Of a stretch of DNA of 64,000 nucleotides, positions 49,797 through 55,575 are shown one piece after another. Source of the stretch: Diplonema papillatum. Taxonomy: Eukaryota > Euglenozoa > Diplonemea > Diplonemida > Diplonemidae. Location of the stretch: NCBI GenBank assembly GCA_030068145.1, contig JAPJBO010000009.1, forward strand, positions 248,001-312,000, given 5' to 3'. The notes under the pieces are model-generated. The model did not search any database and had not been told where the DNA came from. It saw nothing but the letters and a program-made list of their open reading frames with translations. The position numbers and the translations under genes were made by a program. Numbering within the stretch: position 1 is the first letter of the stretch; every line of letters begins with the position of its first letter.

Positions 49797-50101
49797 AACA
49801 ACAACAACAACAACAACAACAACAACAACAACAACAACAACAACAACAACAACAACAACAACAACAACAACAACAACAACAACAACAACAACAACAACAA
49901 CAACAACAACAACAACAACAACAACAACAACAACAACAACAACAACAACAACAACAACAACAACAACAACAACAACAACAACAACAACAACAACAACAAC
50001 AACAACAACAACAACAACAACAACAACAACAACAACAACAACAACAACAACAACAACAACAACAACAACAACAACAACAACAACAACAACAACAACAACA
50101 A
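49797..50101 (+). repeat. (CAA)n tract, left of retroelement
   Basis: About 305 bases of uninterrupted CAA. The long poly-Thr, poly-Leu and similar frames across it are artefacts. Confidence 0.98.
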
Positions 50102-50253
50102 TTCCAGTGTTAACTGTAGGAATCTCTCAGCGAGAAGCGGAGAACGCACTATACCTCATGTTCACTAAACCTCACATTACTAAATACTCAGGAATTATAT
50201 TCCGTTAGTTTTACACCAAAGAGAAAAACTAAGTCACCCTTTTCTACCACTCA

Positions 50254-51327
50254 ATGCCGCCCAAAGACCCCCGGTCGCCGTTTGCCCGGGCCTCGGCGAC
50301 GGGGTACGCGCAGTATGCGGTGCCGGCTGACGTGAAGGAGGCTTTCGTCGAGGCAGTCGGCCCAGTGCTCCCGTACCGGAGTTTAAGCGTGGTGAAGATG
50401 TTGGCCTGGGTTACCCACTTTTTCGTGGAGGTCCCCCTTTCGGAGCATCTCCCGAAGGCCCGGCTGGTGCTGCGGGACCTGTTGTCGGTCCCGGATTCGG
50501 ACACCGCCGCGAGCAGGTTCATCGACGAGGGGGAGGACTGGAAGCTTGCGTGCGTGATGCATGAGGCGTTCGTGGCCAACCCCGCCCTTTTTCGTCGGGT
50601 GATGCGGCAGCACGGCCTTTGGAAGGGCGACCCCCCTGTCGTTGACAGGCGTGCGGCGGCCGGTGCGGCGGCTGAAGCGGCCAACGAAGCATTGCCCGAC
50701 GTCACTCCGCCTGATGACGCGTTCGAAGTGCCCTTGCCGGAGGTACCCGCCCTGGACGGTGACGCGGGCGAGCTCGAGCGGTTGCGCCGTCGGGTGAGGC
50801 AGCTGGAGGCGCCGGGGCAGCGCCCCTTCGACGTCGAGACGCTGGAGTCGGAGCCCGACGTGCGCCCCCCAGCTGCGTGGCGACACCCGTCGGAAGTTTC
50901 CGGGGTCGCCGGCTGGCTCGCCGATATGCGGGATCCGGCGGCGCTCGTGCAAACGTTGCACGGACACTTCGTGGCTGGCCTCGCCCATCTTCCGGGTGGG
51001 AGCATTTTGGAGGACGCTTTCCGGGCGTTACGCCTTTGGATTCTCGGCTGCAGTGAGGTGCAAGACTGGGAGAGGACCGCGTTGCGGGAGCTCGGGGATT
51101 TTCTGCTCCAGCAAGTCTGGGTGCAGTATTTCTTCGTGAAGGATCGGCTGCCCCGTGGGGCGTTGCAGCAGCAGCTGCGGCGCGACGACACCGCGGGGCA
51201 TGCCGTCGCGAAAGCGGCGGCAGCCGTGGCAAAGCAGGGGGGCGCGCGGCGAGATAAGCCGTTCGCGCCGGCGGCCAAGTTCCGACCGAGGAAGGCGGGA
51301 AACGGGGTGGCGGAAAAACGGCAGTGA
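50254..51327 (+). CDS. Gag-like ORF1 of the retroelement
   Basis: A 357-residue frame starting MPPKDPRSPFARASATGYAQ nine bases after the left terminal repeat. It is helical and Ala/Arg/Leu-rich, with a short coiled-coil-like stretch (GELERLRRRVRQLE) in the middle and a basic C-terminus (KAAAAVAKQGGARRDKPFAP). No zinc knuckle. Function as a nucleocapsid is inferred from position. Its stop overlaps the open frame of the next ORF. Confidence 0.7.
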   Translation: MPPKDPRSPFARASATGYAQYAVPADVKEAFVEAVGPVLPYRSLSVVKMLAWVTHFFVEVPLSEHLPKARLVLRDLLSVPDSDTAASRFIDEGEDWKLACVMHEAFVANPALFRRVMRQHGLWKGDPPVVDRRAAAGAAAEAANEALPDVTPPDDAFEVPLPEVPALDGDAGELERLRRRVRQLEAPGQRPFDVETLESEPDVRPPAAWRHPSEVSGVAGWLADMRDPAALVQTLHGHFVAGLAHLPGGSILEDAFRALRLWILGCSEVQDWERTALRELGDFLLQQVWVQYFFVKDRLPRGALQQQLRRDDTAGHAVAKAAAAVAKQGGARRDKPFAPAAKFRPRKAGNGVAEKRQ

Positions 51328-54300: not shown

Positions 54301-54335
54301 GATCGAGCTTTTCCCCTTCGTTATCCTGCAAGTAA
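51324..54335 (+). CDS. Reverse transcriptase-RNase H of the retroelement
   Basis: One frame is open from 51,324 to 54,335, but the recognisable protein starts near 52,640, just after the recombinase stop; the first 1.3 kb is the alternate frame of that gene. RT motifs: TRDLRCGFYQVEIP (motif A), ELERLPMGHSCAPEIMH (motif B) and HVWIDNLRISGG at motif C, with Asp-Asn in place of the usual Asp-Asp. RNase H follows: FTVFVDASLSGWGAV, NVLEALAFRLAV, VDFKVDNTTVVAV and CMNPADVPSR. The stop codon lies inside the right terminal repeat. Expression may need frameshifting, reinitiation or a separate mRNA; sequence alone cannot decide. Confidence 0.8.
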   Translation: MTSVFPSKSPPGHAPPQPRARNCGRTLSPGDVKIPEFKAGSIPRERPAVCKQPPHKPPNRHSGQFSRKAPDRSSREECAPPPQAQAGSRPGRHAESPFFDRRESRGPGPGQLHPAARRILRRQGLVFFAGSAKARRPTAGEAAEAHGRGIGLRGAGPRNAGRSGPEDVGTDNVRSTAPLVGSAEPVVCPLPSSGGRQLGDPVCEGHPGKPTGPARVRESIFGYDEAPWDGYPATPESSESPPVGGGCDSDPAGPPHLKDSSSFLGAPTGAQCSTGGSACVEDREQVGGSGRPGVQPVYFSHQLRGHRGLVDHPQNEEGKPVLSVEMDGDKGGSDPGNRDPGPFSFSLSSALPRDGAGAVYDMALHPSDGAVFGPQRKAGRGVFPLSPYLPGETDPRGVGVSPGEASGSIRLARDDPPVRGGPRVIGEGPSDGVGHEVFVGYSLTKRAHGTKLPVTEEEKRAPLHAAGVKPLNVEALRARMKHSVRERFDSVWRATFFPKVGGVSASRGPPSQFQKAHADKLVACGIAAEACSPGSLRNVPFTVVEQKPSGLRLRFILWTREANEQLHADGYQAQVPLGHVSAYLSVVADECASTRDLRCGFYQVEIPKEARHHFRFTDETGKWYELERLPMGHSCAPEIMHTLTAVVGGHSDFVDGRFTGRDVSVHVWIDNLRISGGRGAVLKETKRIDEFARASGVTWKPEDSNDASPLYDFIGVEFNHVAREVSPSARLLTKLDSIDFESATAGELESYGGRLMHASAISGTFPGGYWFAIKFLRRLTNSLNRGRVVPASGVHIPPSVKSELHAWRESVRSPRCLSPLPARKAFTVFVDASLSGWGAVTINRDTAEMTIAGGSWSSQQASMHINVLEALAFRLAVLSLPEEAQDCLVDFKVDNTTVVAVSRKRLCAASLPLNNAVVDALMRLNERGCSFTVSWVRSCMNPADVPSRVSSSAKLASSNGRRELELAVKGFFSPTGEGEVQASSGKSRFDLSRSSFSPSLSCK
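51391..52641 (+). CDS. Tyrosine recombinase of the retroelement
   Basis: Open frame of 416 codons with no early ATG; translation start uncertain. The N-terminal 90 residues are Pro/Arg-rich. The middle (SQAVLRHVDQQPVRLLRRTA to MKHLGMDTQPLLSLQKAL) is a helical SAM-like core-binding region. The catalytic part shows box I Arg in WKTASRWGEVAAL, box II AHSVKRGAVSFL (His-Ser-Val-Lys-Arg), a later His in LAKHQG and the candidate nucleophile Tyr in TTLRYGGDP. It should integrate the circular cDNA copy by site-specific recombination rather than by a DDE integrase. Catalytic residues look intact. Confidence 0.75.
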   Translation: MGAHCHPETLKSRSSRPARSRGSGPPFANNPPTNLPTGIPDSFPARPPTGVAEKSARPPRRPKQGLAPGGTQNPHFLTGVKAEARAPGSCIQRLGESCVGKGSYFSQAVLRHVDQQPVRLLRRTAEGSVSVVQAREMLDDLVQKMWARTTSDQRRHLWGRLSRWCALCHLRVDANSATLFVRATQVSPQAQLAYAKAFSGTMKHLGMDTQPLLSLQKALRSVGGAIPIRQALPISKTVLLFWARRQEHSVRLVALLAWKTASRWGEVAALASSQFILVTSCEVIVDWWTTPKMRKANPFSPSRWTVIRGDLTREIATLVRFLSPFPQLSPVTAQELSMTWHSTPRMAPYSAHSVKRGAVSFLFLLISQGRRIPEELVSRLAKHQGQSGLPETTLRYGGDPVSLARVLRTGSVTKFL

Positions 54336-55044
54336 AGTACACTACACTACCTTTGATTCCCCTTCCATTTGTGCGTGGTTTTCCGCAGAAAGACGAGCGA
54401 TGAAAGATTCTTCCAGTGTTAACTGTAGGAATCTCTCAGCGAGAAGCGGAGAACGCACTATACCTCATGTTCACTAAACCTCACATTACTGAATACTCAG
54501 GAATTATATTCCGTTAGTTTTACACCAAAGAGAAAAACTAAGTCACCCTTTTCTCCCGCCCTTCCCGCCCTGGGGAGGTACAAGCCTCGTCCGGGAAGTC
54601 GAGATTCGACCTTTCCCGATCGAGCTTTTCCCCTTCGTTATCCTGCAAGTAAAGTACACTACACTACCTTTGATTCCCCTTCCATTTGTGCGTGGTTTTC
54701 CGCAGAAAGACGAGCGATGAAAGATTCTTCCAGTGTTAACTGTAGGAATCTCTCAGCGAGAAGCGGAGAACGCACTATACCTCATGTTCACTAAACCTCA
54801 CATTACTGAATACTCAGGAATTATATTCCGTTAGTTTTACACCAAAGAGAAAAACTAAGTCACCCTTTTCTCCCGCCCTTCCCGCCCTGGGGAGGTACAA
54901 GCCTCGTCCGGGAAGTCGAGATTCGACCTTTCCCGATCGAGCTTTTCCCCTTCGTTATCCTGCAAGTAAAGTACACTACACTACCTTTGATTCCCCTTCC
55001 ATTTGTGCGTGGTTTTCCGCAGAAAGACGAGCGATGAAAGATTC
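54255..55044 (+). repeat. Amplified split-repeat termini of the retroelement
   Basis: Order right'-left'-linker-right'-left'-linker-right, with 317-bp periodicity. The linker CCCGCCCTTCCCGCCCTG occurs at 54,555-54,571 and 54,872-54,888. The first right' overlaps the 3' end of the RT-RNase H gene. Confidence 0.92.
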
Positions 55045-55575
55045 CAACAACAACAACAACAACAACAACAACAACAACAACAACAACAACAACAACAACA
55101 ACAACAACAACAACAACAACAACAACAACAACAACAACAACAACAACAACAACAACAACAACAACAACAACAACAACAACAACAACAACAACAACAACAA
55201 CAACAACAACAACAACAACAACAACAACAACAACAACAACAACAACAACAACAACAACAACAACAACAACAACAACAACAACAACAACAACAACAACAAC
55301 AACAACAACAACAACAACAACAACAACAACAACAACAACAACAACAACAACAACAACAACAACAACAACAACAACAACAACAACAACAACAACAACAACA
55401 ACAACAACAACAACAACAACAACAACAACAACAACAACAACAACAACAACAACAACAACAACAACAACAACAACAACAACAACAACAACAACAACAACAA
55501 CAACAACAACAACAACAACAACAACAACAACAACAACAACAACAACAACAACAACAACAACAACAACAACAACAA
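55045..55575 (+). repeat. (CAA)177 tract, right of retroelement
   Basis: Uninterrupted CAA continuing the tract broken at 50,101, same strand. Poly-Gln, poly-Asn and poly-Cys frames across it are artefacts. Confidence 0.98.

Follow-up and report, generated by a model that had tools for sequence, protein, structure and literature searches.

A probable VIPER-like tyrosine recombinase retrotransposon that inserts into pre-existing (CAA)n microsatellites in Diplonema papillatum

We analyzed a 64,000-nucleotide stretch of Diplonema papillatum DNA (contig JAPJBO010000009.1, positions 248,001 to 312,000; hereafter the window), which carries an intact tyrosine recombinase (YR) retrotransposon at positions 50102-55044, flanked by two perfect (CAA)n tracts. 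As presented in Table 1, a gag-like open reading frame (ORF1) is followed by the YR gene and then by a reverse transcriptase-ribonuclease H (RT-RNase H) gene, and none of the three frames contains an internal stop codon. These genes are combined with split direct repeats in the layout A1-ORFs-B1-A2-B2-A3-B3, in which A (147 nt) and B (156 nt) each occur three times and B1 lies directly 3' of RNase H. The 3' end, B1-A2-B2-A3-B3, thus exceeds the usual B1-A2-B2 arrangement by one AB unit. An earlier reading made from the letters of the DNA (the sequence-only reading) had placed the element between these ends, with this gene order and split repeats, and had both ends meeting CAA on the same strand; all of this was confirmed, the tract limits by Tandem Repeats Finder (TRF). 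A target site duplication was not discernible within the (CAA)n. We consider it highly probable that this is a recently active VIPER-like YR retrotransposon, integrating in a fixed orientation into (CAA)n microsatellites that were already present.

Table 1. Features of the retrotransposon and its flanks (window positions).
Feature	Positions	Strand	Remarks
Left (CAA)n tract, target microsatellite	49796..50101	+	TRF: 306 bp, 102 copies, 100% matches
A1, left split direct repeat	50102..50248	+	147 nt common to A2 and A3
AG trans-splice acceptor in A1	50190..50191	+	39-nt spliced leader attached to the following base in the C318 copy
ORF1, gag-like, 357 amino acids	50254..51327	+	Homologous ORF1 in two related families
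Slippery heptamer GGGAAAC, in frame	51297..51303	+	Putative -1 frameshift site, gag to RT frame
12-bp hairpin, 5 nt past the heptamer	51309..51343	+	11-nt loop with gag stop UGA-CUAG
Gag stop UGA, context UGA-CUA-G	51325..51327	+	Putative readthrough site into YR
Tyrosine recombinase ORF	51328..52641	+	Gag frame, one stop codon between; first ATG not before codon 158
RT-RNase H open frame	51258..54335	+	-1 relative to gag; overlaps the whole YR; conserved RT/RNase H from ~52644
B1	54255..54410	+	
A2	54411..54557	+	Inverted repeat AGATTC-N18-GAATCT at the B1|A2 junction
B2	54572..54727	+	
A3, part of the extra AB unit	54728..54874	+	
B3, right end of the element	54889..55044	+	
Right (CAA)n tract, target microsatellite	55045..55575	+	TRF: 531 bp, 177 copies, 100% matches

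The encoded proteins gave faint similarities. ORF1 showed no Pfam domain and no CX2CX4HX4C zinc knuckle. For the RT-RNase H frame, Pfam returned matches below its cut-off (RNase H, E-values 0.0017 and 0.14; RT, 0.29), and we read the motifs RDLRCGFYQVEI, LPMGHSCAPE and WIDN for RT and VDAS, NVLEA, VDNTT and NPADVPSR for RNase H in the window copy. YR had no Pfam match; it matched PHROG 'integrase' entries at E 1.9e-5 in the related family f2, 0.025 in the window copy and 0.047 in family f8, and the R, H, H and Y of an R...HSxKR...H...Y pattern are invariant in the YR of three families. Profile searches of the PDB returned only poliovirus-receptor matches for YR, taken as chance, and for RT a best match at E 0.92 ('enzymatic polyprotein'). 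Searches of viral contigs with RT and YR and of genome contigs with RT yielded 12, 23 and 53 pattern matches and no confirmed relatives.

Published systems are considered here as described in the available parts of the cited papers. In VIPER and TATE, the YR ORF lies ahead of RT/RNase H and overlaps it (PMC12278014, PMC6681497). The window element has this arrangement, together with the domainless gag-like ORF1 and the A1...B1-A2-B2 repeats of VIPER, and solo A-B units of its family match SIRE, the A2-B2 short form of VIPER in Trypanosoma cruzi (PMC6681497). It differs from VIPER, which comes from T. cruzi and other kinetoplastids, in its probably diplonemid host, in the near-strict (CAA)n target of its family and in a number of extra 3' AB units that varies (0, 1 or 2). 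TATE, from Leishmania and relatives, inserts in the telomeric hexamer at one relative position and forms tandem clusters (PMC6681497); the two agree in gene order, in repeats and in having a short tandem repeat as target, whereas the target here is an internal trinucleotide repeat. In D. papillatum, more than 60 ORFs are described as resembling DNA-transposon proteins 'including TATE' (PMC10161547).

We also weighed whether the element is instead a rearranged Ngaro-like or PAT-like element with no kinship to VIPER or TATE, which we hold to be unlikely. Ngaro elements likewise possess split direct repeats, YR and RT/RNase H, in the order RT before YR and with an optional hydrolase, whereas YR precedes and overlaps RT in the window element. 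Split direct repeats occur in PAT as well as Ngaro (PMC6681497, PMC4157794), and gene order can change. However, the YR ahead of and overlapping RT, the domainless ORF1 and the lack of any methyltransferase or hydrolase match in domain searches of the element proteins are as in VIPER/TATE (PMC12278014), DIRS and PAT by contrast carry a methyltransferase domain (PMC4157794), and the host is probably a euglenozoan.

The target preference was read from a genome-wide tally (271.4 Mb, 2,910 contigs) with A and B queries, both free of CAA repeat, which gave 40 A places and 36 B places. The B places comprised 11 internal B|A junctions, 7 places that break off before the end, and 18 complete external right ends; 13 of these 18 have CAA (6-177 whole units at the junction), 3 are followed by degenerate CAA-rich sequence and 2 have no CAA. 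All 11 complete right ends at ≥96% identity adjoin CAA. Similarly, the A places comprised 11 internal ones, 13 starting past position 3 and 16 complete ends, and among the 13 complete external left ends that were read we observed 10 with CAA, 2 degenerate and 1 without CAA. Nine of the ten have 9-110 units, and the tenth (L036) has four units, TAA and then more CAA. Young left ends read CAA|TTCC, and the 13 right ends GATTC|CAA (10) or GATTC|AAC (3). The CAA strand is identical in every CAA-flanked end, and CAA stood on both sides, on the same strand, in all seven copies with both ends read (C9, C881, C439, C318, C314, C178 and C1445, of which C318 keeps only the first 13 nt of A). The sequence-only reading had named copies in unique, non-repetitive DNA, flanked by CAA on a single side, as evidence that would count against it; none of these seven copies is of that kind. 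Speaking against it, 2 of 18 complete right ends and 1 of 13 read left ends, all in diverged copies, lack CAA. Taken together, the tally places same-strand CAA at both ends far beyond chance.

CAA at both ends of nearly all young copies, in tracts of up to 531 bp, could also arise if the element made its own flanks, either carrying CAA or adding it at insertion like the simple-repeat tails of some retroelements; truncated ends (L009, L010, L036) also lie directly at CAA. We regard this as very improbable. Among CAA tract starts of at least 30 bp (171 counted with one pattern), 81 of the 100 listed had no element match within 1.5 kb and 19 had one (proximity tallied by eye), and the B|A junctions read within elements are free of CAA. 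Moreover, an empty site was found for the C318 copy (L013, reverse complement): the 488 bp left of its CAA tract recur at 97.3% identity about 5.5 kb farther along, where they run into (CAA)11 and a 35-bp sequence (97%) that matches the flank beyond the right tract, with no element between. CAA therefore predates the insertion at this site, in agreement with the proposal of the sequence-only reading that the element entered an existing internal CAA tract. For the window copy, the left flank consists of dispersed repeats and the right flank is not repeated at full length, its other scored matches covering about 60-92 bp. In the paralogue, the longest open frame (215 codons) would translate the (CAA)11 (L013 7474-7506, reverse complement) as poly-Asn, and the other two frames are also open across it (105 and 120 codons). 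The element may thus land in protein-coding genes, the coding at this site being putative.

A little less probable still is near-random insertion followed by survival only in harmless CAA tracts. The behavior of related families lends this some support. YR gave 127 scored matches among 1,829 candidates in the genome, copies of its own family included, and sorting the others by eye gave about ten groups (49-63% identity). In 22 listed loci of other families, 21 right ends were located (none in L022), and 6 of the 21 start in a tandem array within 15 nt, compared with 16/600 and 40/600 random stretches as controls; L068, with an array 16 nt from its end, was scored as a miss. The flush ends belong to f5-type elements (4/5), f7 (1/1) and f10 (1/2), and f2, f3, f4, f8 and f9 together gave 0/13. 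This count covers neither L021, L023, L024, L027 and L056 (truncated or without a clear right end), nor L073 and L074 (f6, no shared end), nor L078, L081-L085 and L087 (no element end in the fetched stretch). In contrast to the expectation of random insertion, CAA tracts of at least 60 bp make up about 0.017% of the genome (estimated at 0.016-0.018%, assuming 150-250 tracts; overlapping (CAA)20 matches, 5,188 + 6,180), yet the 11 right ends of high identity all lie in CAA on the same strand. Because many non-CAA sites are tolerated by related families, selection on its own would not keep the element out of them.

Near-strict CAA targeting is special to the window family among the families examined. 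Targeting of tandem arrays by the whole clade is only partly supported, and the f5-type elements are possibly a second repeat-targeting family. L071, L072, L075 and L079 are f5-type elements flush with 31-bp or 41-bp GC-rich minisatellites; in addition, L021 adjoins an 11-bp array and L082 lies wholly inside a 41-bp array.

A DNA search of the genome with the RT stretch recovered eight copies sharing 1,351 bp at 100% identity, diverged copies and one family at 65%. Compared with the window copy, L011, L013, L014 and L015 carry 0-1 substitutions across 4.2-4.3 kb, and L012 carries 2 in 4.0 kb. Beside the left tract of L011 lies an older A fragment (86%), and the left tract of L014 directly adjoins 10 nt of a B end, which suggests that a single tract was hit repeatedly. 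The left end of the C318 copy (L013, L038) reads (CAA)43-TTCCAGTGTT-[39-nt leader]-A from position 91, and the normal A has AG at positions 89-90, just before this leader junction. The 39-nt leader is listed as 'Euglenozoa 14' in the available part of PMC3795323 and occurs at 300 places in the genome; among the first-listed places, many belong to a tandem array on contig C1335 with a spacing of about 1,240 bp. The use of a spliced leader by D. papillatum is described (PMC10161547). Because the C318 copy has the whole leader after the AG of repeat A, it had an RNA intermediate: a trans-spliced RNA was reverse transcribed and integrated. The near-identity of the copies, and the possible recombination of CAA tracts, might recall a single insertion spread by segmental duplication or by homologous recombination between CAA tracts, but the 40 nt beyond the CAA tracts differ at each locus and the spliced leader in one copy requires an RNA intermediate, which makes this the least credible of the alternatives. 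Self-made CAA flanks, random insertion with survival, and duplication were all rejected on this evidence.

In the C318 copy, 10-13 nt at the outer edge of A have been regained, apparently through a 3-nt overlap (AAC). If this copy integrated in its present form, the 13 left nt of A would suffice at the left end, since the GAATC arm is missing there. This copy suggests a use for the split repeats, namely that A2 restores the part of A1 lost by trans-splicing.

The copies occur in several structural forms. L014 and L015 have the form A-ORFs-B, with no extra AB unit; L010, L011, L012, L013 and L017 end in B-AB (L010 and L017 without the 5' part, L012 internally deleted); the window copy ends in B-AB-AB; L009 is a head-to-tail dimer; and solo A-B units lie inside CAA at L037 and, with a truncated B, at L036. 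These forms could result from YR resolving an A-ORFs-B-A-B circle at its two B|A junctions, or from ordinary recombination between repeats. An exact inverted repeat, with arms of 5-7 nt and a spacer of 16-18 nt, starts at the B|A junction in 8 of 9 families, its arms co-varying between families, and supports a recombinase site there; no inverted repeat was found at the B|A junction of f7.

From the anatomy, the near-identical copies, the CAA at their ends, the one empty paralogous site and the one spliced-leader copy, we infer the following cycle. The transcript would be trans-spliced at the A1 AG and lose A1 positions 1-90. Gag would be translated up to the UGA, with some ribosomes slipping -1 at GGGAAAC to give Gag-RT-RNase H and others reading through UGA-CUA to give Gag-YR. 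Reverse transcription would take A2 and B1 as second templates and so restore the ends, its product being circular, with B joined to A (GATTC|TTCCAG) inside the inverted repeat. YR would then recombine this B|A junction with a CAA tract, leaving A next to CAA on the left and B next to CAA on the right.

The recoding steps of this cycle were examined in the window family (f1), f2 and f8. Gag and YR share one frame with a single stop between them, UGA-CUA-G in the window copy and UGA-CUG-G in f2 and f8. In all three families, the RT frame (-1 to gag) is open across the whole of YR, with 0 stops against 8.8, 11.7 and 10.3 expected, a result reached in 0 of 5,000 synonymous shuffles each. An in-frame heptamer (GGGAAAC, GGGAAAC and GGGAAAA, respectively) lies 21, 21 and 18 nt before the gag stop. 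It is followed after 5, 5 and 4 nt by a gap-free stem of 12, 11 and 11 bp with the stop in its loop, the stem sequences being unlike; stems of at least equal length appeared in 0.06%, 0.34% and 0 of 5,000 shuffles. The short hairpin without the heptamer was more stable than shuffles (z-scores of -3.0, -2.2 and -2.6); a 124-nt fold around the gag stop was no more stable than shuffles (z -0.39), and with the heptamer included a competing fold was preferred in f2. From these sequences we infer that RT is reached by -1 frameshifting and YR by readthrough of the UGA. No recoding hairpin is mentioned for VIPER in the available text of PMC6681497 or PMC12278014.

Several observations weigh against this interpretation as a whole. 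Regarding the target, a single empty site was found, the right ends without CAA (L045, L052) and the left end without CAA (L046) are exceptions, all in diverged copies, and three complete left ends (C1769, C37, C635) stand outside the count. Regarding the proteins, box II of YR is HSxKR, with K at the second catalytic position, where tyrosine recombinases usually have Arg (R...H-x-x-R...H...Y). The AlphaFold (AF2) model of YR is poor (mean confidence score pLDDT 52), and Foldseek with this model gave 119 matches at E ≤10 and 0 at E ≤0.001; ranks 1-9 are Cre or Tre chains (one of them, 3c28, presumably Cre) at E 0.03-0.28 and a structural-alignment score (TM) of ~0.2. RT motif C is WIDN (RT at window 52644-54332), conserved in f2 (58% identical), instead of the usual xDD. 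The element is most likely VIPER-like, a placement drawn from gene order, overlap and repeats. Regarding the mechanism, the circle, frameshift and readthrough are deduced steps, the inverted-repeat count at B|A carries no shuffle control, and the recoding signal was read in three families only. Other slippery heptamers occur nearby, at 51237 in f1 (upstream of the open RT frame) and at L026 7592 in f8, and YR has an ATG at codon 44 in f2 and codon 21 in f8, so readthrough is not the sole start there.

Elsewhere in the window, positions 41742-41886 hold a degraded solo A-B remnant of the same element (the A start, a short spacer and B positions 45-145), with no CAA in the ~75 letters read downstream. 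Two arrays of a similar 31-bp repeat (43076-43780 and 45482-45801) lie in opposite orientation about 1.7 kb apart. A second RT/RNase H stretch (26736-28729, + strand) is frame-broken, with a YDD-type motif and at most distant similarity (best E 0.055).

What appears new in this account is the choice of target, the copy with the spliced leader and the recoding hairpin. Non-long-terminal-repeat retrotransposons that insert only in a microsatellite are described, namely Togen at (TG)n and some HERO families (PMC4640811), and these use a restriction-like endonuclease and not a YR; in the available parts of the literature searched, we found no YR retrotransposon aimed at a microsatellite except TATE at telomeric repeats. 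More broadly, and only tentatively, we propose a VIPER-like clade outside kinetoplastids whose families aim YR at different tandem repeats, this one at (CAA)n and f5 mostly at GC-rich minisatellites. Its template for replication might be trans-spliced RNA, the sequence lost in trans-splicing being put back by the split direct repeats, and one message might yield Gag, Gag-YR and Gag-RT by means of a single small hairpin that serves both -1 frameshifting and UGA readthrough. Double recoding at such a hairpin would account for the expression of three overlapping genes at different levels.

This family offers a clean natural assay of target choice by YR retrotransposons and of the purpose of split direct repeats: there is one defined target sequence, several insertions are almost identical, one site is empty and one copy preserves a trans-spliced template as a fossil. 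With this family, the VIPER/TATE design would reach beyond kinetoplastids, and its recombinase, if restricted to a trinucleotide repeat, would be a testable site-specific enzyme.

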